47,351 nt of DNA from Sulfurimonas sp. Lineage in GTDB: Bacteria > Campylobacterota > Campylobacteria > Campylobacterales > Sulfurimonadaceae. Shown here piece by piece: positions 1,620 through 43,419 of this stretch. Below the pieces are notes generated by a model. It was given only the letters and a program-made list of their open reading frames with translations. It did no database searches and had not been told where the DNA came from. Made by a program: the position numbers and the translations under genes. Position 1 is the stretch's first letter, and the number at the start of each line of letters is the position of its first letter. Location of the stretch: contig JALUXP010000089.1 of NCBI GenBank assembly GCA_027013295.1, positions 1-47,351 on the forward strand, in the 5' to 3' direction.

Positions 1620-2390
1620 TCATATATCTTTCATACTATCTCGAATATGTAAAAATTCATCTAAATGATCAAAAAAAATATCTATAAGCACTGGATCAAA
1701 ATGCTCACCTCTCTCCTCTTTGAACATCTTAAAAATTCTTTCATCATCCCATGCTGATTTGTATACTCTTGAAGAGCCTAAAGCATCAAAAACATCTGCT
1801 AAGGCTGTGATACGACCATATATATGTATATCTTCACCTTTGAGCTTATTTGGATAACCTGTGCCATTGTATTTTTCATGATGTTCATAAGCAACAATAG
1901 CTGCCATTTTGATGAGTTCACGCTTAGAGTATTGTAGTATATCATAACCTAATTGTGCATGAGTTTCTACAATAGCTCTCTCTTCATCATTAAAACGCCC
2001 AGGTTTGTTTAAAATAGCATCTGGGATAGCAATCTTACCAATATCGTGCATAGGAGAAGCTTGCTCTAGCATTTTGCACTCTTTATCAGATAAACCATAA
2101 TGTTTTGCTAGAAGATAAGAGTATTGAGCAACTCTTTTAACATGATTGCCTGTTTCTTTTGAACGACTTTCACCAATAGCACCCATAGTGAAGACAACCT
2201 CTTTTTGGGTCTCTTCTATCTCGATTTTTAAAGCCATCAACTCATCATATTCTTGTTTTTGTCGTTTATCACTTCTTGCCATAATTTTATCTTGTCGCTT
2301 GACATCTTTGATCAGTTTATCGGTGGTGTTGATAAACTCCTCTTTCAAGGCTTTGATTTCAGCAATAAGTTTATTTTCATGAGTTTGCAT
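1620..2390 (-). CDS. HD-GYP c-di-GMP phosphodiesterase with N-terminal coiled coil
   Basis: Last gene of the signalling operon. Residues ~1-65 are a highly charged coiled coil containing VKRQDKIMARSDKRQ near residue 30. Residues ~66-256 are a complete HD-GYP domain: His83, His115-Asp116 in MHDIGK, HHE at 170-172 and the GYP triad at 178-180, then IYGRITALADVFDAL. HD-GYP enzymes hydrolyse c-di-GMP to GMP or pGpG; all metal-binding signature residues appear intact. There is no receiver or membrane segment, so the protein is cytoplasmic and probably controlled through the coiled coil. Eight bases follow the siaC-like stop. In Pseudomonas siaABCD this position is held by the diguanylate cyclase SiaD. 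Activity is inferred from motifs only. Confidence 0.9.
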   Translation of the reverse strand: MQTHENKLIAEIKALKEEFINTTDKLIKDVKRQDKIMARSDKRQKQEYDELMALKIEIEETQKEVVFTMGAIGESRSKETGNHVKRVAQYSYLLAKHYGLSDKECKMLEQASPMHDIGKIAIPDAILNKPGRFNDEERAIVETHAQLGYDILQYSKRELIKMAAIVAYEHHEKYNGTGYPNKLKGEDIHIYGRITALADVFDALGSSRVYKSAWDDERIFKMFKEERGEHFDPVLIDIFFDHLDEFLHIRDSMKDI

Positions 2391-2398
2391 CTCTTTAG

Positions 2399-2773
2399 CT
2401 ACTTTGTTACAAGTTTTATGTCTAACTTTTCAAAATCTTCGATAAAATCTTCTCCTGCTTCCTCTGCACTCTCATTTTCTTCATCGTAAATCCAGTTGAT
2501 CTCTATCTCGTGTTCATTTGCATTCTCTTCTAAGAGATCAAAAAAATCAAAAAAAAGTTTTGAACTACTTGAGTTAAAGTAGATGATCTCCATATTGACA
2601 ACCGTCTTCTTTGCAGGTTCATTTTTAAAATACTCCTCTATCCATTGCATCAGTGGAGCATAAAACTCAAATGTATTTTCTGGATAAGATTTCCCAACAA
2701 GTGAAATGATCCCTTTTAGATCAAGAGCTATCTCTGGTGTGTATTTTGTCGCTTGTATTTGTAAATTTTCCAT
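2399..2773 (-). CDS. SiaC-family regulatory phosphoprotein (DUF1987)
   Basis: Small single-domain protein of 124 residues, the usual size. It carries the family hallmarks ATKYTPEI near residue 8, VGKSYPEN at 26-33, and YFNSSSSK at 65-72. In Pseudomonas SiaC the phosphorylated residue is Thr68 in the equivalent loop; here position 68 is Ser, so the switch residue appears kept as a different phosphoacceptor. The acidic C-terminal part (residues ~95-118) is unusually rich in Glu/Asp. The stop of the siaB-like gene directly abuts the start codon, so the two are translationally linked. In the known system unphosphorylated SiaC binds and activates a c-di-GMP enzyme; the natural partner here is the HD-GYP protein encoded next. 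Confidence 0.85.
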   Translation of the reverse strand: MENLQIQATKYTPEIALDLKGIISLVGKSYPENTFEFYAPLMQWIEEYFKNEPAKKTVVNMEIIYFNSSSSKLFFDFFDLLEENANEHEIEINWIYDEENESAEEAGEDFIEDFEKLDIKLVTK

Positions 2774-3325
2774 CTAATTTTCTCTCTTTTTAGTTATTGT
2801 TGTAGTTTTTATATGAAAGTAGTATCTGTCTTCATTTATTTTTGTAAAATCATACTCAATAGCATCACATTTTTTTGCTATCTCGTAAAAACCAATGCCA
2901 CCACCTTTGTCGTGAGTATTGTGCCCACTTCTTCGTAACTCTCTATATCTTTTTTTGATGCCATCTCTATCTAAAGATTGTATCTCCAATAATTTTGGTT
3001 CTATTTTCTCTTTATCTTCTGATGAAATGATATTTTGACTATCGATGTAATAGTTATAGTCACTATCTTTGGAAACAACAATAAGCCCTTGAGGTCTTTT
3101 GGCATCACTCTCAACAGCTTTAGAATAATTCATAATATTTTGAGAAAGTTCAATAAAAATAGTAAATAGATTATTTGAAACATTCATCGTTATCCCATAC
3201 TCCTTAGCTTCTAGCTCAAGAGCCTCTGTCATACCGCTAATAAGTGTTTGTGATAGATAGCCACCATAACTTAAAAATACAATCCCATCGCTATCGACTA
3301 ATTGTTGTATCTTAATTATATTCAT
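2774..3325 (-). CDS. SiaB-family protein kinase (GHKL-like, DUF6272)
   Basis: About 183 residues from the ATG at 3325, which has AAGGAAAC upstream; a longer frame begins at 3382 but would overlap the receiver gene. An N-box-like stretch (ELSQNIMNYS) and a glycine-rich GGGIGFYEIAKK lid/G-box mark a GHKL ATPase fold. There is no phospho-acceptor histidine domain, so this is a protein serine/threonine kinase in the style of SiaB or anti-sigma kinases. The expected target is the SiaC-like protein made from the adjoining gene, counteracted by the PP2C phosphatase of the SiaA-like protein. Confidence 0.8.
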   Translation of the reverse strand: MNIIKIQQLVDSDGIVFLSYGGYLSQTLISGMTEALELEAKEYGITMNVSNNLFTIFIELSQNIMNYSKAVESDAKRPQGLIVVSKDSDYNYYIDSQNIISSEDKEKIEPKLLEIQSLDRDGIKKRYRELRRSGHNTHDKGGGIGFYEIAKKCDAIEYDFTKINEDRYYFHIKTTTITKKREN

Positions 3326-3347
3326 AAATAAGTTTCCTTTTTCTGTT

Positions 3348-3704
3348 TTATCTAAAGCTTTTGATTGCCTGAAGTAGGTCACCTTCTTTGAAAGGTTTTT
3401 TAACTATTGAGGTTTTTAACTTTTTTATGTCCTGAAGCAAATGTTGATTTGCCACCGATGTAACCATAACTATCTTAACATCATTACTAAGAATCCTTAT
3501 CCTTTTAATCATCTCTAAACCGTTAAGATTTGGCATCTCCATATCTGCTACAATAAGATCTGGTTGCAAAGTTTCGTATTGCTCCACTCCGTCTACCCCA
3601 TCTATAGCCTCACCAACTACTTCATAACCACCTATACTTTCTAAAGCTTTTTTAATAGTGGTTCTAGAAAACTTTGAGTCATCAACAATTAAAACTTTTT
3701 CCAT
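3348..3704 (-). CDS. CheY-like single-domain response regulator
   Basis: Stand-alone receiver of 118 residues. The acidic pair is in IVDDS near residue 8, the phospho-acceptor Asp54 is in VADMEMP, the conserved Thr/Ser is in MVTSV and the Lys is in VKKPF. No output domain follows. I use the ATG at 3704 with AAAGGAAT upstream; an in-frame TTG precedes it by one codon. It sits between the phosphatase and kinase genes, a place that classical siaABCD does not have. It may feed a histidine-kinase signal into the SiaB/SiaC switch, or act as a phosphate sink; no histidine kinase gene is nearby. Confidence 0.9.
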   Translation of the reverse strand: MEKVLIVDDSKFSRTTIKKALESIGGYEVVGEAIDGVDGVEQYETLQPDLIVADMEMPNLNGLEMIKRIRILSNDVKIVMVTSVANQHLLQDIKKLKTSIVKKPFKEGDLLQAIKSFR

Positions 3705-3716
3705 CAATTTATTCCT

Positions 3717-5264
3717 TTAAATTCTTAGCCCAATAACTGTCTTGTCGTCATTAGTTTCTTCCTCATCTTGGTATTCCATCATGATACCTAAAAATACCTC
3801 TTGTTGATTTGCCATAGATTCTTTATGATACTCTTTAATTATCTCTTTAAATCTTTTTTTACCAAATGGAAAACCTTTAGTTCCACCATTTTGGTCAAAA
3901 TATCCATCAGTAGATATGTAAAATTCCATCCCATTTTTTGTCTCTACGGTATGTTCTTTGTATTTGTGATTTGTATCACATTTTTTATACCCTACCGAGT
4001 ATCTATCACCTTTGATAATTTTTATTTCATCATCTTCTGTGTAATATAGTGGTGTTTCCGCCCCAGCAAATCGTATTATATTCTCTTTTTTATTATAATA
4101 CAATACTGCACCATCAAATCCTGCATTTGAAATACTATCTGCATCTTCTTGTTTTAAAAGATGTTTCATGTTAGTGTTAAAAATACTTAAAATTGTGGCT
4201 GGGCTTACTATCTCCTCATCGTGATGCATTATATGAGATATGATTTGACTCTCTATTGCTTTTACTAGCATTGTTACAAAAGCACCAGGGACACCATGCC
4301 CTGTGCAATCTATTGCCATTAATAGACATTCATCTTCATGTCTAAGCTCTTCAAAAAAGTATATATCTCCACCCACAGTATCTTTTGGATGCCAAATCAC
4401 AAAAAACTCTTTAAAGTAATCTCTAAATATATTGTTGTCAGGGAGTAAAGCTCCTTGTATAAGCGATGCATACTCTATGGACTCCCTTGTATGTTTGTGA
4501 ATATACTCAATGCTTTGTTTTGTTTTTTCAAGTTCTTGTGTTTGTTGCGTGATCTGCTGCATCGTGGAGTTAAACCCCTCAAACAAGGTATAAAACTCAT
4601 CGTCATTCTCATTTACTAAAGTAGAAAAGGGTCTGTTGTTTGCGATGTCATTCATCTTCTCTTCCAACATAAATATAGGACTCGTAAATTTTTTCTGTAG
4701 CTTTAACGCAAGTACAATAACGATAGTAAGAGAGAAGAGAAAAGAAAGAACAGATACTATGAGCTGTTTATAGATCGTATTGTACAAGGCGTTTGTATTG
4801 CGAACAAGAGATAGATTTCCCAAATAATCTTCCCCGCTAAAAATTGCCACATTTGCAAAAACATATTTTTTGGTTATTGATGTGAAACTATCTTTTTTTG
4901 TATGTTTGTTATAGTTTTGCTCTATCTCTTTGAGTAATTGTGAAGAACTATCCTTATTTTCTATGTACTTGACAAACAACTGCTTGTCTTTAGTAAAAAC
5001 AAATGCACCCTCTATATTTTTATTTGCTTGAAGTGTATTTAAAAGGATGGTTGCACTTTGTTTGTCATCAAATTCCATAGAAGCAGATAGGTTTTTTGAA
5101 AGTATATTTGCAGTATTGAAAAGTGAGCTTTTTGCCTGTTCTTGGTACTCTACGAAGGTGTGAATAAATATGGCAATAGAGGAGATGGTTACTGCTATGG
5201 CCGCACTTGATCCTAAAAGAACGAGAAGTTTTGTTTTTATCGATCTTAGTTTTTTTCTTTGCAT
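3717..5264 (-). CDS. SiaA-like membrane sensor phosphatase (CHASE8-like, HAMP, PP2C/SpoIIE)
   Basis: 515 residues. Membrane segments at ~12-37 and ~168-188 enclose a periplasmic domain whose core (LSASMEFDDKQSATILL, then GAFVFTKDKQLF) looks like CHASE8, the sensor type found in YfiN. A HAMP domain (~190-245) and a coiled coil (~235-270) lead to a SpoIIE-type PP2C phosphatase: Asp300 in VGGD, Asp319 in AIDCTGHGVPGAF, Asp in ISTDGYFDQ and the C-terminal DDKTVIGLRI supply the metal-binding aspartates. It should dephosphorylate the SiaC-like protein. The ATG has AAGGAAAG and lies nine bases after the receptor gene. Combining a YfiN-type sensor with a SiaA-type output beside a yfiR-like gene is the notable point. 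Confidence 0.85.
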   Translation of the reverse strand: MQRKKLRSIKTKLLVLLGSSAAIAVTISSIAIFIHTFVEYQEQAKSSLFNTANILSKNLSASMEFDDKQSATILLNTLQANKNIEGAFVFTKDKQLFVKYIENKDSSSQLLKEIEQNYNKHTKKDSFTSITKKYVFANVAIFSGEDYLGNLSLVRNTNALYNTIYKQLIVSVLSFLFSLTIVIVLALKLQKKFTSPIFMLEEKMNDIANNRPFSTLVNENDDEFYTLFEGFNSTMQQITQQTQELEKTKQSIEYIHKHTRESIEYASLIQGALLPDNNIFRDYFKEFFVIWHPKDTVGGDIYFFEELRHEDECLLMAIDCTGHGVPGAFVTMLVKAIESQIISHIMHHDEEIVSPATILSIFNTNMKHLLKQEDADSISNAGFDGAVLYYNKKENIIRFAGAETPLYYTEDDEIKIIKGDRYSVGYKKCDTNHKYKEHTVETKNGMEFYISTDGYFDQNGGTKGFPFGKKRFKEIIKEYHKESMANQQEVFLGIMMEYQDEEETNDDKTVIGLRI

Positions 5265-5273
5265 CTGCTTTCC

Positions 5274-7535
5274 TTAAAACCTCATAGTTGCTTTAACATA
5301 GTAAAACGCTCCACTAAAACCGATCGGTGAATAGTTTGAGTAAGGCAAGATACCATTATATCCTTTAAACTTACCAGAGTTTTTCCACTTGTTTGGTCTA
5401 GTGTTAAAAATATTGTTACCACCTAAGCTAAGGTTTGTTCTTTTTGTTATCTTGTAGCTTAGTTGTGCATCAGAGATCATAACAGGATCAAATCTTTGCG
5501 ATACACCAGAAACAACTTGAGAGTAAGAGCCGAAGCGACTAAAGTTGTAAGTGACATTGTATTTTACAGTTTTGTAGTTAAGTAGCAATCTTTGTGAATT
5601 TTTTGGTTGCCCATTTTCAATCCTATCTAATGCAGTTAAAGAGTTTGCTTGTGTTATGTATGGGGTGTTTATTTGTAAAATAGTGTTTTTGTTATAGTTG
5701 TACCATAGAGTGATGTCTAACTGTTTGTCATCATCCATCTTGTAGTTATAGACACCTTTTAGATCTACACCTTCTGTTTTTGTGTCGATCGCATTTGTAA
5801 AAAAACGCATATCAGTAATATTTCCAATATTTATTGGAATATCACCTGAAAGCATCACTTTGTTATTTACCCTAGTGTAAAAATAATCAGCCATAAAGTA
5901 ATAGTTTTCACCTTTGTAAACGCCCCCTAGTGAAAGATGCTGCGACTTTTCTGGTTTTAATGCTCTAGCACCATGTTTTATAGCGATAGGATTTGTTGTT
6001 TTAAAAGTTCCCTTAGTTTTAATTGTGTTCCCACTAGAATATGTGGATGTTAAAGAATAGTTCGACTGAGCAAGGGAGGGTGCTCTAAAGCCTGTGCTTG
6101 CAGAAGTTCTCAGCCGAAATGATTCTGTAACTTTATATGTCCCAGCTAATTTAATATTTCTTGTTGAGCCAAAATCACTATATTTTTCGTATCTTCCAGC
6201 TAACTCAGTAGATAATTTTGGTGTAAAATTAAATGTAGTATCTACATAGAGTGCATAATTTTCTCTTCTACTATTTGTCTCATTAGCTGGTTGGAAACCA
6301 GCAAACCCTTGTGAGCCACTATCTATATAAGATGCTTTGTCTCCAGCATAGATGTTGTACTTTTCAACTCTATATTCCGCCCCAAGTGCAAGTGCAATAG
6401 TATCATTTATCTGTTTTTTCATATCAAGATTTGTGGTGTATTGAGAAAATACAAGTTTGCCATTGTTAAAAGATGTAGGGGAACTACTGTTGAGATCATA
6501 GTTCATACTATTTGTTACGCCAAAAGCAAAACTATTTTGACCTATAACCTGACTTAGATCCCACTTGATGCCGTTAAAAATCTCACCTTTCATCCCAACA
6601 GTAGCAGAATAGTCCATAATGTTTGCATGAATCATAGGGAGAAACCCATTTGGGAAGATGGCTCTTGATGGATCTGGTGTTCTAAAATAGGCACTTGCTT
6701 GACTAGCTCTTTTGTTGAGCAAAATATTTGAATAGAGTAAAGAACCGCTCTCTAATGGTATCTCGGCATTCATAAGTAGGTGGTAATTTGTTGCTTTTGG
6801 TAAACCATAGTGAGTTGATACTACAGGGGGAGTTAACCGTCTATCTAGCCCTGCATTTTGTGTTTTATCTGACTTTATGGTATCTACTGTAAAGTTGATG
6901 AAGCCATCATATTTTAAAGGGATAGAGATAAATCCAGAGATAAATTTTCTTTTGCCTTGACCTTTTTGGCGTTCACCACCTTGGATAATGACCTTGTTTT
7001 TGTTTCCATAACCTTTAAGCACAATATTGATAACACCAGCAATAGCATCACTCCCGTATTGCGAAGCAGCACCATCACGCAAAACTTCAACCCTCTGTAT
7101 CGCATCAACAGCAATGGTGTCGAGATCAACATTGCTAGAACCCTTTCCTATAGTTCCATTTACATGCAAAAGAGCTGATGTGTGTAGGCGTTTTCCGTTG
7201 ATCAGTACGAGCACTTGATCTGGACTCATCCCTCGGAGTGTAAATGCACGGACATGATCACTCCCATCAGATATAGAGGGGTTAGGAGCATTAAATCCAG
7301 CAACAAAATAACGCAATATGTTTGTTAAAGAGCTCATCCCTGTTTGTTCTATCTGTTGTGCTGTGATAACATCTACCGCTGACTTGGCATCAAAATAGTT
7401 TTTTGCACCATCACGAGATCCGATGTCTACTTTTGCTTCACTCTCTACATTCATCAAATCTTCCAAGCTTTCATCAGCAAAGAGATCGATACTAAAGAGG
7501 GGTATGAATAACAACATAAAATATCTACTTATCAA
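5274..7535 (-). CDS. TonB-dependent outer-membrane receptor
   Basis: 753 residues with a hydrophobic signal peptide (~1-20), an N-terminal plug domain (LRGMSPDQVLVLINGKRL, then VEVLRDGAASQYGSDAIAGVINIV) and a long beta barrel ending in FYYVKATMRF with the terminal Phe expected for outer-membrane insertion. Motifs resemble vitamin or siderophore-type receptors; the ligand cannot be read from sequence. The start is TTG, overlapping the yfiR-like stop as TTGA, with AAAGGAT six bases upstream. There is no transport operon around it. Its placement ahead of the signalling genes suggests it senses or imports the signal. The only tonB-like gene in the window is at 16681-17559. Confidence 0.93.
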   Translation of the reverse strand: MISRYFMLLFIPLFSIDLFADESLEDLMNVESEAKVDIGSRDGAKNYFDAKSAVDVITAQQIEQTGMSSLTNILRYFVAGFNAPNPSISDGSDHVRAFTLRGMSPDQVLVLINGKRLHTSALLHVNGTIGKGSSNVDLDTIAVDAIQRVEVLRDGAASQYGSDAIAGVINIVLKGYGNKNKVIIQGGERQKGQGKRKFISGFISIPLKYDGFINFTVDTIKSDKTQNAGLDRRLTPPVVSTHYGLPKATNYHLLMNAEIPLESGSLLYSNILLNKRASQASAYFRTPDPSRAIFPNGFLPMIHANIMDYSATVGMKGEIFNGIKWDLSQVIGQNSFAFGVTNSMNYDLNSSSPTSFNNGKLVFSQYTTNLDMKKQINDTIALALGAEYRVEKYNIYAGDKASYIDSGSQGFAGFQPANETNSRRENYALYVDTTFNFTPKLSTELAGRYEKYSDFGSTRNIKLAGTYKVTESFRLRTSASTGFRAPSLAQSNYSLTSTYSSGNTIKTKGTFKTTNPIAIKHGARALKPEKSQHLSLGGVYKGENYYFMADYFYTRVNNKVMLSGDIPINIGNITDMRFFTNAIDTKTEGVDLKGVYNYKMDDDKQLDITLWYNYNKNTILQINTPYITQANSLTALDRIENGQPKNSQRLLLNYKTVKYNVTYNFSRFGSYSQVVSGVSQRFDPVMISDAQLSYKITKRTNLSLGGNNIFNTRPNKWKNSGKFKGYNGILPYSNYSPIGFSGAFYYVKATMRF

Positions 7536-8056
7536 GATTCATCCTTTACTATTTTTACTATACGCAATAAAACTGAACGAATTTGTAGATCATTCTTCTT
7601 TGCTACACCTAGGTTGATCTTAAGTCTCAGTTTTCTTGATAAAAAATAGAGTTGTAAAATACCTTTTTTTTGTGCAAATCCACGAATATCACTGATGGTT
7701 AAAATGTTTTTGCTGGAAATACTTTGTAATATAGTTGTTAGCTTATAGGAATCTTTTTTGGGAATATATAAAATTTTTGTATCTTGAGGTAGATCTTTTA
7801 TGTTGTTTATGTAAATGATTTTGATCTTTTTTCCATCTATCTTTTTACCTTTGTAGGCAATATCAACTTTTTTGCCAAAAGGGTTATCTAAGATAGTTAT
7901 CGTGAAAGAGGAAGTCTCGTTAGGCCATGAGATATACTTTGCTATTTTTCCCATAACAGCTACTTTTAAAGCATCTTCTGATTGGTATGCAAAAAGAGAG
8001 TTTACACTCAGTAAAAAGATTAAAATACTTCTTATTATCACCAAATATAACCTCAT
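7532..8056 (-). CDS. YfiR-family periplasmic protein (DUF4154)
   Basis: 174 residues with a signal peptide (~1-23, cleavage after LFA). The mature start (ALKVAVMGKIAKYISWP) and the later ILTISDIRGFAQKKGILQLYF segment are characteristic of YfiR/DUF4154. In Pseudomonas YfiR is a periplasmic repressor that holds the CHASE8 domain of the diguanylate cyclase YfiN inactive. Here there is no YfiN; instead the operon encodes a phosphatase with a CHASE8-like sensor, which is the obvious partner. First gene of the seven-gene operon. Its ATG lacks a clear Shine-Dalgarno, and a possible -10 (TAAAAT) lies about 25 bases upstream. Confidence 0.85.
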   Translation of the reverse strand: MRLYLVIIRSILIFLLSVNSLFAYQSEDALKVAVMGKIAKYISWPNETSSFTITILDNPFGKKVDIAYKGKKIDGKKIKIIYINNIKDLPQDTKILYIPKKDSYKLTTILQSISSKNILTISDIRGFAQKKGILQLYFLSRKLRLKINLGVAKKNDLQIRSVLLRIVKIVKDES

Positions 8057-8142
8057 TTGAATTTTTTGTAGGGAATTTTAGCATATGTTTCTTAAATTTT
8101 GGTATAGTTAGAAAGCTTTAATCTTTATGGGTAGGTAACTAT

Positions 8143-9063
8143 ATGTTTCAAGAACTATATGAGAATAATGACCTCACTAACATTTCAAAAATTAACTATG
8201 ATACTCTCTATGAAGAGTATAAAACCATCCTAGATGCTCACAAAAAATTAGAAAAACGACTCAATAAAATCATTAAAATGAGTGATAAAACTTTGTTCCA
8301 AAAACTAGGTTCTATAGAGAACTATGCAAAACAAGAAAGAAGATATGGATATATTATCAAGCAAGGTGATGCTCAGGGTAAAGCACTTTTGGATGACACA
8401 TATGATTTGGAAGGGCTTTTAAATGTAGAGCTTGAGAACGAACGACTTTTGATGAAAGAGATAGAAGAGACCCAAAAAGAGGTTGTTTTTACCATGGGTG
8501 CTATTGCCGAGAGCCGTTCTAAAGAGACAGCAAATCATGTAAAACGGGTTTCAGAATACTCAAAACTTTTTGCACGGCACTATGGGCTTAGCGAAGAAGA
8601 ATCAGAAATGCTCAAACAGGCAAGTCCTATGCACGATATTGGTAAAGTAGCTATTGCAGATGCTATCTTAAACAAACCAGCTCGATTAACTCAAGATGAG
8701 TTTGAGATTATGAAAAAGCATACTAACATAGGTTGTGAGATGCTCAAGCACTCCCAAAGAACTTTGATGAAGGCTGCAACAATTGTAGCATATGAGCATC
8801 ATGAACATTTTAATGGCAAGGGATACCCTCGAGGGCTACAAGGGTATGAGATACACATCTATGGGCGTATCACAGCTATTGCAGATGTATTTGATGCACT
8901 TGGAAGTAAAAGAGTTTACAAAGATGCATGGCCAGATAAAAAAATATTTAACTACATGAGGGAGGGATCTGAAACTCAGTTCGATCCAAAACTTGTTGAG
9001 ATATTTTTTGAGCATTTAGATGAATTTTTAGCGGTTCGTGATGCCTTTAAAGATGAGATATAA
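8143..9063 (+). CDS. Second HD-GYP c-di-GMP phosphodiesterase, paralogue of the 1620 gene
   Basis: 306 residues, divergent from the signalling operon. Residues ~15-115 form a charged helical/coiled-coil region with RLNKIIKMSDK near residue 40, reminiscent of the stalk in the 1620-2390 protein. From EIEETQKEVVFTMGAI (residue ~106) to the C-terminus the two proteins are strikingly alike, pointing to duplication. The catalytic set is present: HD at 164-165 in MHDIGK, then AYEHHEHFNGKGYP. A candidate -10 (TATAGT, 8103-8108) precedes the ATG. A strong terminator closes the gene. It probably acts in the same c-di-GMP circuit, perhaps bound by the same SiaC-like protein. Confidence 0.9.
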   Translation: MFQELYENNDLTNISKINYDTLYEEYKTILDAHKKLEKRLNKIIKMSDKTLFQKLGSIENYAKQERRYGYIIKQGDAQGKALLDDTYDLEGLLNVELENERLLMKEIEETQKEVVFTMGAIAESRSKETANHVKRVSEYSKLFARHYGLSEEESEMLKQASPMHDIGKVAIADAILNKPARLTQDEFEIMKKHTNIGCEMLKHSQRTLMKAATIVAYEHHEHFNGKGYPRGLQGYEIHIYGRITAIADVFDALGSKRVYKDAWPDKKIFNYMREGSETQFDPKLVEIFFEHLDEFLAVRDAFKDEI

Positions 9064-12317: not shown

Positions 12318-12650
12318 TTAGAGTAAGGCATCTATTCTATTTTCTAATGCTTTTATCTTACCGTTAAGGCGATCTGTTTCTTGCCTGTGTTTGGAGTTTC
12401 GAGTTTTTAGAACTTTAAGTTCACTTCTTAATTTTGTTAACTCTTCACTAAGGATATCTACATTTCCTAGTGCGCGTTGAAGTTGAATCTGGTATTTTCG
12501 TATGAGTATTTCAGCTTCTTGAAGTGTAAGTTTCATCAGCTCATTGCTTCTTTGCTCTTTGTTTGTGATGCTCTTAAAATAAAACATTTTCACAAACAAA
12601 AAGACTGAAAGTATCGAAAGTATTGTGAGTAATGACCATTCCCAAAACAT
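12318..12650 (-). CDS. Small single-pass membrane coiled-coil protein
   Basis: 110 residues of unknown function. Residues ~5-23 (LLTILSILSVFLFVKMFYF) are one membrane span; the rest, ~30-110, is a long charged helix with heptad character (LSEELTKLRSELKVLK and so on), predicted to be a cytoplasmic coiled coil. The architecture recalls division or envelope scaffold proteins such as FtsL/ZapB-like ones, but no specific family is recognised. The ATG has AAAAGGAT. It is tucked between rpiB and apt in the same operon. Confidence 0.8.
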   Translation of the reverse strand: MFWEWSLLTILSILSVFLFVKMFYFKSITNKEQRSNELMKLTLQEAEILIRKYQIQLQRALGNVDILSEELTKLRSELKVLKTRNSKHRQETDRLNGKIKALENRIDALL

Positions 12651-12672
12651 AATAATATCCTTTTAATTAATG

Positions 12673-13101
12673 CTAGAGTTCAATTTTTACTACTCTAGCC
12701 GTATGGCGACCACCATCAAAACTCCCATCTATCCATGCATCTAAGATAGACTCTGCAACACCTTTACCAATGATGCGTTCACCAAAACAAAGAACATTTG
12801 CATCGTTATGAGCACGAGCTACGGTTGCAGTATATGCATCATGACAGAGTGCAGCTCGGATACCTTCATGCCTGTTTGCAGCCATACTCATACCGATGCC
12901 AGAACCACAGATGAGGATACCTTGTGTTTGCAAATCTTCCAACACAGAGATGCAAAGCTTATGTGCATAGTCTGGATAATCAACTCTGTCGGTAGTAAAT
13001 GGACCCAGATCAATAACATCATGTCCTTTTTGCTTTAAAAGCTCAGCGGTATAGTTTTTAAGCTCAATTCCTGCATGATCCGTTGCTATAAAAAATTTCA
13101 T
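12673..13101 (-). CDS. rpiB: Ribose-5-phosphate isomerase B
   Basis: Interconverts ribose-5-phosphate and ribulose-5-phosphate in the pentose phosphate pathway. 142 residues. The N-terminal ATDHAG, the catalytic-cysteine loop GILICGSGIGMSMAANR with Cys near residue 65, and CHDAYTATVARAHNDANVL are diagnostic of the RpiB/LacAB fold. Position between the M50 protease and coiled-coil genes with short gaps (10 and 22 bases) indicates one transcript; with apt it supplies PRPP-related metabolism. Confidence 0.96.
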   Translation of the reverse strand: MKFFIATDHAGIELKNYTAELLKQKGHDVIDLGPFTTDRVDYPDYAHKLCISVLEDLQTQGILICGSGIGMSMAANRHEGIRAALCHDAYTATVARAHNDANVLCFGERIIGKGVAESILDAWIDGSFDGGRHTARVVKIEL

Positions 13102-39572: not shown

Positions 39573-39860
39573 CTAATGAAGAGAGTAGAGGAGGGAGCTG
39601 AACACCACAGTAACTATTTGCAGGGCAATAATAATAATTAGTGGCGCTAAATCAAGACCACCAAAATCTGTACGGATATATCTTCTTACAAAGATATACG
39701 CAGGGTTAGTTATACGATATAAAAACTGAACAATAGGATTGTAAGGGTCAGGATTGATAAAACTCATAAGAGCAGTTGCAATGATAACCCAAATATACAC
39801 ATTGACTAAACTAAGCAAAATATTACCTAAACCTTGTACAATCTCCATAATAACACTCAT
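39573..39860 (-). CDS. YggT family membrane protein
   Basis: 95 residues with two to three membrane helices and the YggT core: LVNVYIWVIIATALMSFINPDPYNPIVQFLYRITNPAYIFVRRYI, then LDLAPLIIIIALQIV. Implicated in osmotic or ion tolerance and often linked to division genes; here linked by a four-base ATGA overlap to the degenerate GluRS gene. Confidence 0.9.
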   Translation of the reverse strand: MSVIMEIVQGLGNILLSLVNVYIWVIIATALMSFINPDPYNPIVQFLYRITNPAYIFVRRYIRTDFGGLDLAPLIIIIALQIVTVVFSSLLYSLH

Positions 39861-41050
39861 TTTACTATCTCCCCAATATAATTTTTGATATATTTATAAA
39901 TCTTTACAAGATCTACACCATTGCTACTGCCCGTCAACACTAAAGAAAGTGTTTTAAGCAACTCATCACCGTTGAGTCCAGACTTTTCCATAATATGATT
40001 TTGAAAACCATCGTACTGGTCAAAATAGGGTGCTTCTTTGATGATTTTTATAATAAGTTCTGATTGTTTGCTAAACTCTTCAGGGATATTTTTTGGAGCA
40101 AATATCAGTGCTATTTTAGCTTTAAGCTCTTTAGTCGTGCTTATATCTTCTAAGTATATTTTTGCTAGCTCACCAATCTCTTCATCGGCAAAACCAACAT
40201 ATCTTGAGAGCTCTTTTGCATTAAGCATTTTTAGATATTTTTGATTTATATTTTTTAACATCTCTATGTCAAAACGGAAAGGGAGGGGGGATAGGTCATT
40301 GATATCTAGATCTTTAATTGCTTCATCAAGCCCCATTGATATTAAATAATTTGAAATTGCTTCTGGTAAAAAACCCTCCTCTAAAAGCCACTTTACACTC
40401 ACAGCATCATCACTCATGATAGTTGGAAGATAGATATATTGTATTTGTTTATCGTATTGCAATGTAGTTCTAATGTAGTCTTGTTTTTCAATATTTTCTC
40501 TGTAGTTTTCTTTACAAACAATAATAGAGATGTCACTCAGCATATCATCAATAGCACAAGAAAAATCATAAGTTGGTCTTTTGTCTTGTTGCATAATAAT
40601 AAAGCTTTCAGTATCCTCAGTTGCTCTTCTCACTCTTACCGTAAAAGGGTTTGTGTTGTCTATAACAAGCTCTGCTGGAAGATTTGCACAGGCATCATCA
40701 TATTTATAAGGTTGGTTGTTTGTTTTAGCCTCAGCTTTTTTTGTTGCTAACCATTCAGGGGAGCAAAAGCAACTAAAAGCCTTTTTTTCATGGATAAGTT
40801 GGAGTGCCATAGCCGTATGAAAACGGATATTTTCACTTTGGTAGATAGTTTGGGAGTATTTAATTCCAAAGAGATCTAATATACCAAGATTCTCTTTGTC
40901 TTTATCATCTATACCTTTGTCTTTATCCATATCTTCAATTCTGACAATAAATTCTTCATTCTTTTGACAAGAGACAATATAATTTAAAAGGGCAACTCTT
41001 AAATCCCTAATGTCTATATCGCTAGTAGGGCTAAAAGCAAATCTTAGCAT
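39857..41050 (-). CDS. Degenerate glutamyl-tRNA synthetase paralogue
   Basis: 397 residues, shorter than the ~430-470 of true GluRS but with the same outline: MLRFAFSPTS at the front, VRIEDMDKDKG near residue 36, FCSPEWLATKKAEAK near 96, RPTYDFSCAIDDMLSDI near 158, and the helical C-terminal domain. The HIGH signature is replaced by DIDIRD (11-16) and the KMSKR loop is cut to IMSDDAVSVK (~211-220). Both ATP-handling motifs being lost makes aminoacylation unlikely. It probably descends from the GluRS2 that many Campylobacterota use for tRNA-Gln; here glnS lies divergent next door. AGGAAAA precedes the ATG. Confidence 0.8.
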   Translation of the reverse strand: MLRFAFSPTSDIDIRDLRVALLNYIVSCQKNEEFIVRIEDMDKDKGIDDKDKENLGILDLFGIKYSQTIYQSENIRFHTAMALQLIHEKKAFSCFCSPEWLATKKAEAKTNNQPYKYDDACANLPAELVIDNTNPFTVRVRRATEDTESFIIMQQDKRPTYDFSCAIDDMLSDISIIVCKENYRENIEKQDYIRTTLQYDKQIQYIYLPTIMSDDAVSVKWLLEEGFLPEAISNYLISMGLDEAIKDLDINDLSPLPFRFDIEMLKNINQKYLKMLNAKELSRYVGFADEEIGELAKIYLEDISTTKELKAKIALIFAPKNIPEEFSKQSELIIKIIKEAPYFDQYDGFQNHIMEKSGLNGDELLKTLSLVLTGSSNGVDLVKIYKYIKNYIGEIVK

Positions 41051-41166
41051 TCATTTTCCTGCATAATAATTTTTTTGAGATTTTATCAAGTTTTAGCTAA
41101 TAAACCCCATAAATATGATTACTAAAGCTCTAATTTGCTAAAATACATCAAAAAGGTTTAATCATA

Positions 41167-43419
41167 ATGAGTAAGAGCAAAGATTTTTTACGCACAATAG
41201 TTGAAAATGACTTAAAATCAGGCAAATATAAAGAAATTGTTACAAGGTTCCCCCCTGAGCCAAATGGATTTCCACACATTGGACATGCTAAGTCAATCGT
41301 TATAAATTTTGGAATCGCCAATGATTATCAAGGACACTGTAATCTTAGAATGGATGATACAAATCCAACTACAGAAGATACTAAGTATGTAGAAGCCTTA
41401 AAAGATGCTGTAGAGTGGCTCGGATTTAACTGGGGTAAGAGTGTGTGCTTTACCTCTGATTATTTTCCTAAGTTGTACGATTATGCTGTAGAGCTTATCA
41501 AAATGGACAAAGCTTATGTTGATAGCCTTGGCGAAGATGAGATTCGTGAGTATAGAGGTAGTGTCACAGAGGATGGAAAGCGAAGTAAGTATGCTAAGCG
41601 TTCCATTGAAGAAAATCTTGACCTTTTTGAAAGGATGAAAAAGGGAGAGTTTGCAGAGGGTGAGCATGTTCTTCGAGCCAAGATTGATATGTGTGCTGAC
41701 AACATGAAGATGAGAGATCCACTTTTATACCGTATCAAACATGCCCATCATTTTAGGGCAGGGGATGAGTGGTCTGTTTATCCTATGTATGATTTTGCCC
41801 ACTGTTTATCCGACTACATTGAGGGGGTTTCTCACTCCATCTGCACACTAGAATTTGAAAATAATCGTGATGTTTACAATTGGGTATTAGAGACTCTTGG
41901 GGTTGAATTGCCACGCCCTAATCAACATGAATTTGCACGACTCAATATCAACTATACAGTTATGAGCAAAAGAAAGCTTTTAGAATTAGTTGAAAGTGGG
42001 CAAGTAAGCGGCTGGGATGACCCTCGTCTTCCAACTATTGCTGGATACAAAAGGAGAGGTTATACTCCAGAATCTATCTTAACTTTCTGTAGTCAAATAG
42101 GTGTAGCAAAAGCTAACTCTATGGTCGATGTCTCACAGCTTGAATTTTGCATTAGAGATGATTTGAACAAAAAAGCACCTCGTGTTATGTGTATCCTTGA
42201 TCCACTCAAGATAACAATAGAAAATTATGAGGGTAGGGAGACCATTAATGCACCATATTACCCAGATGATATAGCTAAGGATGGTTTAAGAGAGATACCT
42301 TTTTCAAAAGAGATTTATATTGATCGTGGTGATTTTATGGAGCAACCCCCAAAAGGCTATTATCGTTTAACACCTGAGCAACCAGTAAGGCTCAAACATG
42401 CTTATATCATTAGTTGCAAGGAGATTATAAAAGATGCTAATGGCAATATTAGTGAGATAAAAGCAGAGTATTATCCAGAGTCAAAAAGTGGATTTGATAC
42501 CAGTGACATCAAAGTTAAAAGTGCTATCCAGTGGGTAGATGCAACACAAGCTAAAACAATAGAGGTAAGACTTTATGACAGATTATTTAAAGATGAAGCC
42601 CCAGATGGGTTAAAAGATATAAATCCTAATTCTTTGCAAGTTATCAAAAATGCTCTTATTGAGCCTGCTGTAATAACTGAAAAATTTGATGAGAGATTTC
42701 AGTTTGAAAGAGAAGGGTACTTTTATGCTGATCCTATTGATTATACAGATGAAAACCCCGTGTTCAATAAAATAGTAGGTCTTAAAGATTCTTGGAACAA
42801 AAAGAAAAAAACCATTAGCAACACATCTAATAAGCCTCAAACTAAAAAAGTACAGATAGATGGTGAAGTGGTAGCTATGAGCAATAAACAACAAGCATTG
42901 TTCAATAGATATACTGTCAACTTAGGATTAAACAATGAAGTAGCCAACACCCTTGCTCGTGATGAAAAATTATCCAATTTTTACGAAGAAACTCTAACTA
43001 CACTTAACAGTCCCGTTGCTTTAGCTAATATTGTAGCAAACGAAGTTGCAAGAGAGTTAAAACAGATACAAAAAGATACGCTAAAATTCAACGCCAAGCA
43101 AATATCTGAGCTTGTTAAAATGATTGATAATGAGATCGTTTCAAATAAAATTGCTAAACAGATATTTGAGCAAATGGCTAAAACAGGAGAAAATCCCACA
43201 AAGATAGTTGAAGATAAAGGGCTTATCCAGATAAGTGACCCAGCTAAAATTTTACCAATAATTGATGAAATTATTGCAAATAATCCAGATAATGTTGCTA
43301 AGTTTAAAGCAGGGAACAAGAAACTTCTAGGGTTTTTTGTTGGGCAAGTACTCAAAACTACAGATGGTAAAGCAAATCCAAAAGTGGTAAACTCTCTTGT
43401 AACTAAAAAGTTGAAATGA
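41167..43419 (+). CDS. glnS: Glutaminyl-tRNA synthetase with C-terminal YqeY/GatB-like domain
   Basis: 750 residues, against ~550 for the usual enzyme. The catalytic core has FPPEPNGFPHIGHAK near residue 29 and KMSKS as VMSKRKLL near 265; GEWSVYPMYDFAHCLSD-like EWSVYPMYDF near 200; then the beta-barrel anticodon domains. Residues ~570-750 form a helical GatB/YqeY tail (LARDEKLSNFYEE, ANIVANEVARELKQ, GFFVGQVLKTTDGKANPKVVNSLV), as known in Deinococcus GlnRS, where it helps bind tRNA. Its presence means direct tRNA-Gln charging rather than the transamidation route common in this phylum. Confidence 0.95.
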   Translation: MSKSKDFLRTIVENDLKSGKYKEIVTRFPPEPNGFPHIGHAKSIVINFGIANDYQGHCNLRMDDTNPTTEDTKYVEALKDAVEWLGFNWGKSVCFTSDYFPKLYDYAVELIKMDKAYVDSLGEDEIREYRGSVTEDGKRSKYAKRSIEENLDLFERMKKGEFAEGEHVLRAKIDMCADNMKMRDPLLYRIKHAHHFRAGDEWSVYPMYDFAHCLSDYIEGVSHSICTLEFENNRDVYNWVLETLGVELPRPNQHEFARLNINYTVMSKRKLLELVESGQVSGWDDPRLPTIAGYKRRGYTPESILTFCSQIGVAKANSMVDVSQLEFCIRDDLNKKAPRVMCILDPLKITIENYEGRETINAPYYPDDIAKDGLREIPFSKEIYIDRGDFMEQPPKGYYRLTPEQPVRLKHAYIISCKEIIKDANGNISEIKAEYYPESKSGFDTSDIKVKSAIQWVDATQAKTIEVRLYDRLFKDEAPDGLKDINPNSLQVIKNALIEPAVITEKFDERFQFEREGYFYADPIDYTDENPVFNKIVGLKDSWNKKKKTISNTSNKPQTKKVQIDGEVVAMSNKQQALFNRYTVNLGLNNEVANTLARDEKLSNFYEETLTTLNSPVALANIVANEVARELKQIQKDTLKFNAKQISELVKMIDNEIVSNKIAKQIFEQMAKTGENPTKIVEDKGLIQISDPAKILPIIDEIIANNPDNVAKFKAGNKKLLGFFVGQVLKTTDGKANPKVVNSLVTKKLK

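Follow-up and report, generated by a model that had tools for sequence, protein, structure and literature searches.

What does a SiaC phosphorylation switch control when the enzyme encoded next to it is an HD-GYP protein, expected to break down cyclic di-guanosine monophosphate (c-di-GMP), and not a cyclase that makes it? This question is raised by 47,351 nt of DNA from Sulfurimonas sp. (contig JALUXP010000089.1; GCA_027013295.1, 134 contigs totalling 2.06 Mb), the whole of which is called the window. It contains a minus-strand operon (8056–1620) of seven genes, in the order yfiR-like, TonB receptor, CHASE8-PP2C (siaA-like), cheY-like, siaB, siaC and HD-GYP. In the searchable literature, SiaC is known only as the activator of one Pseudomonas aeruginosa cyclase. 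Our analysis makes it quite probable that the operon encodes a SiaA/SiaB/SiaC partner switch with a c-di-GMP phosphodiesterase as its output, driven by a YfiR-TonB receptor-CHASE8 input, and that SiaC docks on a helix of the HD-GYP protein, most likely activating it.

In the P. aeruginosa complex, SiaC binds the stalk of the cyclase SiaD and holds it as an extended parallel dimer, with SiaC D79 contacting SiaD R74 and SiaC T68 contacting S82 and Q86; SiaD K77, V78, D83 and R84 are also contacted, and phosphorylation of T68 blocks binding (PMC8457831). The 256-residue HD-GYP protein that closes the operon (1620–2390, minus strand, as are all operon coordinates below; Pfam HD_5, 112.2 bits against a cut-off of 27.2) carries, at residues 32–44 (2259–2297), the segment RQDKIMARSDKRQ. 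Compared with RLEKVARISDRYQ of SiaD (PDB 7e6g), it is identical at R74, K77, S82, D83 and Q86, with V78 changed to Ile and R84 to Lys, which gives the motif R-x-x-K-I-x3-S-D-K-x-Q. Among 100 proteins bearing this helix (hereafter, docked proteins), R74 was conserved in 95%, K77 as Lys or Arg in 97%, V78 as Ile in 94%, S82 in 87%, D83 in 100% and Q86 in 94%. A weaker version of the motif, RLNKIIKMSDKTL, occurs at residues 39–51 (8257–8295, plus strand) of a second, 306-residue HD-GYP protein (8143–9063, plus strand; Pfam), divergent from the operon; its Gln86 position is Leu, and a structural model had low confidence at the dock, with a break at 74–76.

The partner surface of SiaC (2399–2773; PF09345/DUF1987, 130.8 bits, above the Pfam cut-off of 24.5) is also kept. 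Its phospho-acceptor is Ser68 (Thr68 in P. aeruginosa), within YxN[TS]S, and Y65, N67, S69, D79 and D114 occupy SiaD-contact positions. Among 100 distinct SiaC proteins, Y65, N67 and the phospho-acceptor position were invariant, the acceptor being Ser in all of them (P. aeruginosa has Thr); the position of D114 was always acidic, and position 110 was acidic in all but one. Residue D79, the partner of R74, was Asp in 83 of 83 distinct SiaC proteins from docked loci versus 11 of 17 elsewhere. The SiaC proteins of loci L032, L033, L034 and L043 lack D79, three of them also lack S69, and there is no recognisable docked partner nearby; these proteins have possibly switched target. When a profile of siaC-linked helices was compared with the PDB, the second motif of SiaD aligned in register and the first only weakly; SiaD ranked fifth (E 0.36), after designed coiled coils and KIF21A, which is no evidence by itself. 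We strongly infer, from the register of the contact residues and from gene linkage, not from the profile score, that SiaC docks on the N-terminal helix of the HD-GYP protein.

Linkage was examined in a survey of 397 genomes of the home phylum, in which SiaC is rare (22 genomes), and in a scan of named genomes from which 80 siaC loci were fetched. A docking profile built from siaC-linked proteins matched 18 of the 397 genomes, 17 of them carrying SiaC (Fisher p ~1e-24 counted by genome and 4e-13 by genus, phylogeny being uncorrected), and also recovered docked proteins outside its building set. The match in the SiaC-free genome G390 (E 2e-4) was rejected as a chance coiled coil, in a frame resembling a membrane sensor. 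In the home genome (G000), which encodes 16 HD-GYP domains, docking matches fell on just two, both at the window locus. Sixteen HD-GYP-type domains is a large number for a 2.06 Mb genome. The profile, trained on Campylobacterota, gave strong matches in just 2 of 274 gammaproteobacterial genomes, both SiaC-positive, and gammaproteobacterial operons that pair siaC with a SiaD-type GGDEF gene share the [SG]D..Q site. The strict motif R..[KR][IVLM]...[SAG]D..Q was found in 94 of the 4048 open reading frames (ORFs) of the surveyed loci, one of them, deep in a 1537-residue protein, being plainly unrelated.

A first-pass annotation of this DNA had presented the operon as a single merged oddity and proposed a neighbourhood search of DUF1987 with HD-GYP. 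In our survey, the gene directly after siaC encoded an HD-GYP protein with a dock at 50 of 106 siaC ORFs (phylum and named loci together, some loci reached twice), a docked tandem-HD protein at 10, a docked histidine kinase at nine and a docked GGDEF protein at two. The pairs of siaC with a docked HD-GYP gene come from both Campylobacterota and Pseudomonadota, and their spacing was mostly below 20 bases. Because siaC followed by HD-GYP recurs dozens of times, the arrangement in the window is not due to chance, and the oddity turns out to be a widespread module. The annotation's central proposal, that SiaC phosphorylation gates the HD-GYP enzyme, gains support at residue level from the SiaD-contact residues kept in the helix and the retention of D79 at docked loci, and further support from linkage across phyla. 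Several of the closest named relatives of SiaC are from Sulfurimonas. In the catalytic-domain tree, sequences of Pseudomonadota, those of isolate Marinobacterium strains included, fall among those of Campylobacterota, and horizontal spread is therefore likely, although some contigs of metagenome-assembled genomes (MAGs) may be misbinned. The operon or its core also occurs in cultured species from the environment, among them Sulfurospirillum cavolei UCH003 (L142), which has the siaABC-HD-GYP core, and Marinobacterium (L105, L107 and L110).

The position of the dock relative to the enzyme is also constrained. Counted from the docking Asp, the His of the HD motif lay 81 residues away in 45 proteins, 74 away in six, including the window protein, and 88 away in one; in the second HD-GYP protein of the window the figure was 116. 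All four values equal 7n+4. The lone other value, 77 (L157), was discarded, the pattern there having matched a stretch without a real motif. Since the catalytic-domain tree requires four or more changes to account for the 74-residue class, there were several independent length changes, all of whole heptads. AlphaFold2 (39 sequences, mean predicted local distance difference test score 88) modelled residues 2–74 as one uninterrupted helix entering the HD-GYP domain. The top PDB fold match of the model was PmGH, which dimerises through a GAF domain and a long helix that enters its HD-GYP domain (PMC4159591). The heptad spacing and the helix model are as expected for, and support, a coiled coil that would relay the docking signal to the enzyme.

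We propose that an event in the outer membrane, at the TonB receptor, would, by analogy, pull YfiR off CHASE8 and alter PP2C activity. The PP2C phosphatase (SiaA) would strip, and SiaB would add, phosphate on Ser68 of SiaC, as predicted from homology and conserved sites. Unphosphorylated SiaC would then dock on R-x-x-K-I-x3-S-D-K-x-Q of the HD-GYP helix, in the way it binds the stalk of SiaD, and docking would steady a parallel dimeric coiled coil and switch the HD-GYP domain, most probably turning it on and so lowering c-di-GMP. If so, the same state of SiaC gives the opposite outcome to that of P. aeruginosa SiaABCD.

The input side is encoded by the first three genes. The YfiR/HmsC-like periplasmic protein (174 residues, 7532–8056; Pfam DUF4154 YfiR/HmsC, 108.3 bits, cut-off 24.9) has a hydrophobic, signal-peptide-like N-terminus, and its top NCBIfam YfiR model is TOL_0243. 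The TonB-dependent outer-membrane receptor (753 residues, 5274–7535; Pfam, NCBIfam) comprises plug and barrel. The SiaA-like membrane phosphatase (3717–5264; match to PDB 6k4e, E 3e-51) combines CHASE8 (49.3 bits, cut-off 27) and SpoIIE/PP2C (59.3 bits, cut-off 25) on one protein: the CHASE8 periplasmic domain lies between two hydrophobic segments and is followed by a PP2C half with GGD, DCTGHG, TDG and DDKT motifs, whose top NCBIfam match is SiaA. The opposing kinase is a SiaB-family protein (2774–3325; Pfam DUF6272, 111.6 bits, cut-off 26.6; NCBIfam SiaB_fam_kinase, 131.6 bits, above the cut-off of 85). The YfiR-TonB receptor-CHASE8/PP2C cassette accompanies siaC at six loci, in differing gene orders: the window, L030 (same genus), L127 (a gammaproteobacterial MAG), L150 and L160 (cave MAGs) and L164 (Thiovulum). 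The merger of Yfi and Sia systems that had been suspected from the window alone is thus real. L150 and L160 carry a second siaA-like gene besides the cassette, and two phosphatases may there feed one SiaC. The SulCav MAG contigs of L150, L160 and L168 were deposited as Helicobacter cetorum, a doubtful name for their source.

By analogy, YfiR would restrain the phosphatase and the TonB receptor would relieve that restraint. A serious competitor, to which we give somewhat less than an even chance, is that YfiR senses a periplasmic ligand that the receptor merely imports, without sequestering YfiR. TonB receptors are importers by default, and P. aeruginosa YfiR, which shows disulfide/redox behaviour, also binds small molecules (PMC4887326); however, the conserved three-gene grouping fits either route, which sequence cannot separate.

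The sign of the output is a further point. SiaC could dock as proposed and inhibit the HD-GYP enzyme, so that activation of SiaA would raise c-di-GMP as in P. aeruginosa, keeping the ancestral sign. The docking evidence would be identical, the computed data fix no sign, and an enzyme swap that retained the physiological output of SiaA would require inhibition. However, the clamped state resembles a competent one, both in the extended parallel dimer of SiaD (PMC8457831) and in the dimer of PmGH formed through GAF domain and helix (PMC4159591), and the occurrence of docks on enzymes of both synthesis and breakdown suggests that SiaC sets coiled-coil geometry and not a fixed outcome. We consequently consider inhibition unlikely, and activation of the HD-GYP domain the preferred reading.

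The catalytic domain retains all eight PmGH metal ligands listed in PMC4159591 (E79, H83, H115, D116, H144, H170, H171 and D199), as well as the equivalents of Lys225 and Asp308 (K119 and D202), GYP at 178–180 and E-T-G at 79–81; the metal ligands, K119, D202 and GYP were invariant in 39 aligned HD-GYP sequences. As the ligands, these equivalents and GYP are intact, the window protein is likely to hydrolyse c-di-GMP. It is quite improbable that it acts instead on another cyclic dinucleotide or serves as a c-di-GMP receptor. The position of PmGH D183 is Ser77 here, and Ser also in V-cGAP3, specific for 3'3'-cyclic GMP-AMP; some HD-GYP proteins are receptors, and the fold matches include DvhD, which PMC13090378 discusses in terms of c-di-GMP receptor regulation. 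Set against this are the intact catalytic residues and the top match, in sequence and in fold, to PmGH, a c-di-GMP enzyme.

Several observations weigh against phosphodiesterase control by SiaC as we propose it. Docking is here deduced from single-chain sequence and fold, and D183 of PmGH, replaced by Ser77, is needed for the activity of that enzyme. The co-occurrence is, on its positive side, partly built in, the profile having been drawn from siaC-linked proteins; what is informative is the near absence of the dock from the 375 SiaC-free genomes, themselves expected to be rich in HD-GYP proteins. Both the D79 and the co-occurrence statistics ignore phylogeny. A minority of siaC loci have no recognisable docking partner nearby, and the HD-GYP gene of L157 adjoins siaC but its product shows no clear motif. 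On the input side, the disulfide/redox chemistry of P. aeruginosa YfiR cannot apply, because the window protein and five related YfiR-like proteins all lack cysteine after the signal region. That the HD-GYP gene is simply co-transcribed with siaABC, its helix an ordinary coiled coil and the true target elsewhere, is very unlikely: docking is predicted from sequence and related genomes offer SiaC other docked proteins, but the contact residues are conserved, the dock is strictly tied to SiaC-bearing genomes, D79 is retained and the home genome yielded just two docked proteins, both at this locus.

The siaB-siaC pairs of L169 and L173 (Desulfonema and a Desulfococcaceae) lack a docked protein nearby, and searching the whole L169 genome for docks gave no match either. 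No natural fusion of SiaC with HD-GYP was noticed among the loci read, in which SiaC ORFs were at most ~160 residues long.

Docks also precede other enzymes. Next to siaABC, L038 (1926–2927, minus strand) and L048 (682–1683, minus strand) encode a class III adenylate/guanylate cyclase (PF00211) that bears a docking helix (QLSKIVKISDRQQ), and L035 encodes a docked HATPase-CheX protein. Soluble histidine kinases with the dock at their start occur in L044, L045, L050, L051, L119, L121, L127–L129, L133, L143, L148 and L150, sometimes adjoining a cheY gene, and through them SiaC may gate a phosphorelay. In L041, a 77-residue protein consisting almost solely of the docking helix (12601–12834, plus strand) is encoded between docked GGDEF and docked histidine kinase genes; it is possibly a decoy or connector. 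In L046 (8558–9460, minus strand), L122 (5202–6116, plus strand) and L132 (7802–8704, plus strand), siaC and the HD-GYP gene are separated by a gene for a protein of ~300 residues with a docking-like helix; that of L046 has a weak, probably degenerate GGDEF domain. ORFs in L100 and L104 matched both PP2C phosphatase and SiaB queries and are possibly fusions of the phosphatase with its opposing kinase. On balance, SiaC is probably a general phosphorylation-gated adaptor that reads a transplantable helix, R-x-x-[KR]-I-x3-[SAG]-D-[KR]-x-Q, placed before at least five enzyme classes (GGDEF, HD-GYP, tandem-HD, histidine kinase and class III nucleotide cyclase).

The remaining gene of the operon encodes a CheY-like single-domain receiver (3348–3707; Pfam Response_reg) with D9, D10, D55 and T83. 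Such a gene is present in the operon at ~20 related loci, often directly before siaB, and sometimes beside a docked histidine kinase (L044, L127 and L128); the docking-profile search of the home genome found no docked histidine kinase.

All seven ORFs are intact at the positions given, with junctions, from 5' to 3', of −4, 9, 9, 22, 0 and 8 bases (negative values are overlaps). The siaB ORF opens at GTG 3382, giving a cheY-like/siaB junction of −35, as compared with 22 from ATG 3325, which is the likelier start. A single terminator-like pattern was detected, within the siaA-like gene, and the count is below the shuffled expectation; the operon is therefore likely to be read as one transcript, as predicted from sequence. 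The first-pass annotation had counted seven tightly spaced minus-strand genes in 1620–9063. The genes, their spacing and their domains were confirmed; that range, by comparison, holds eight genes in two directions, since the HD-GYP gene at 8143–9063 is on the plus strand. The block is flanked by pepA (9100) on one side and ychF (435–1553) on the other. In a genome of the same genus (L187) these two adjoin directly, which points to a gain of the block between them, and in three more they lie close together; at most fetched loci pepA does not adjoin ychF within 1.5 kb and the neighbourhood is variable. Elsewhere in the window (39857–43419), a 397-residue Glu/Gln-tRNA-synthetase-like ORF adjoins a 750-residue class Ic tRNA synthetase with a C-terminal GatB/YqeY domain.

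With P. aeruginosa SiaABCD (PDB 6kko, 6k4e and 7e6g), the operon shares the PP2C phosphatase, the SiaB-family kinase, SiaC with YxN(T/S)S, and an output enzyme bearing the SiaC-binding stalk motif, all in one operon. It departs from that system in its CHASE8 sensor, which is coupled to YfiR and a TonB receptor, in having a single docking motif where SiaD has two, in its additional cheY gene and in Ser68 in place of Thr68. Because the scores fall short of the NCBI equivalog cut-offs (SiaA 260 of 700 bits, SiaB 74 of 225, SiaC 103 of 150) and the output, by Pfam, is HD-GYP and not GGDEF, we do not place the operon in SiaABCD proper. With YfiBNR/HmsCDE it shares the YfiR/HmsC-like periplasmic protein, which carries DUF4154, and a CHASE8-bearing inner-membrane sensor. 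However, CHASE8 drives PP2C here, in place of the GGDEF of YfiN (CHASE8-HAMP-GGDEF), Pfam detected no OmpA-like yfiB gene in the operon, where the TonB receptor holds its place, and the YfiR-like protein lacks cysteines and hence the disulfides of YfiBNR. The TOL_0243/TOL_0244 cassette (NCBIfam NF053590–NF053592) shares the YfiR-like protein, TonB receptor and YfiR-associated sensor; NCBI models name this similar trio with a histidine-kinase output, as opposed to PP2C, and the window proteins score under the model cut-offs. PmGH (PDB 4mcw) shares the catalytic domain, metal ligands and long helix running into the domain from the dimer interface, and differs in having a GAF domain where the window protein has the SiaC docking helix, and D183 where it has Ser. 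The HsbA-HsbD and Bgr partner switches likewise place a STAS-type phosphoprotein on a c-di-GMP enzyme (PMC8457831), but with another STAS family and a cyclase target.

A literature search, covering sources other than subscription papers and preprints, found no prior description of this operon and no account of SiaC with HD-GYP or another non-GGDEF target, of a YfiR-TonB-PP2C cassette or of a partner switch with HD-GYP. The parts are known; what appears to be new is how they are combined, together with a portable docking rule that spans enzyme classes. In the accessible part of their article, the authors of an eLife paper suggested modulation of neighbouring proteins by those with DUF1987, and that part names no other target. 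With the docking helix, the suggestion becomes a rule by which the target can be predicted from sequence. The heptad-locked spacing, in turn, offers a testable mechanism for the control of HD-GYP enzymes by a small phosphoprotein. By the docking rule, Campylobacterota and several lineages of Pseudomonadota would use the same switch to destroy c-di-GMP, and elsewhere it would drive kinases and nucleotide cyclases. If SiaC is indeed a general adaptor, one Ser/Thr switch would drive c-di-GMP synthesis, c-di-GMP breakdown, phosphorelay or synthesis of cyclic AMP or cyclic GMP, and the Sulfurimonas-type operon would be the HD-GYP version of this system, tied to a TonB/YfiR input.

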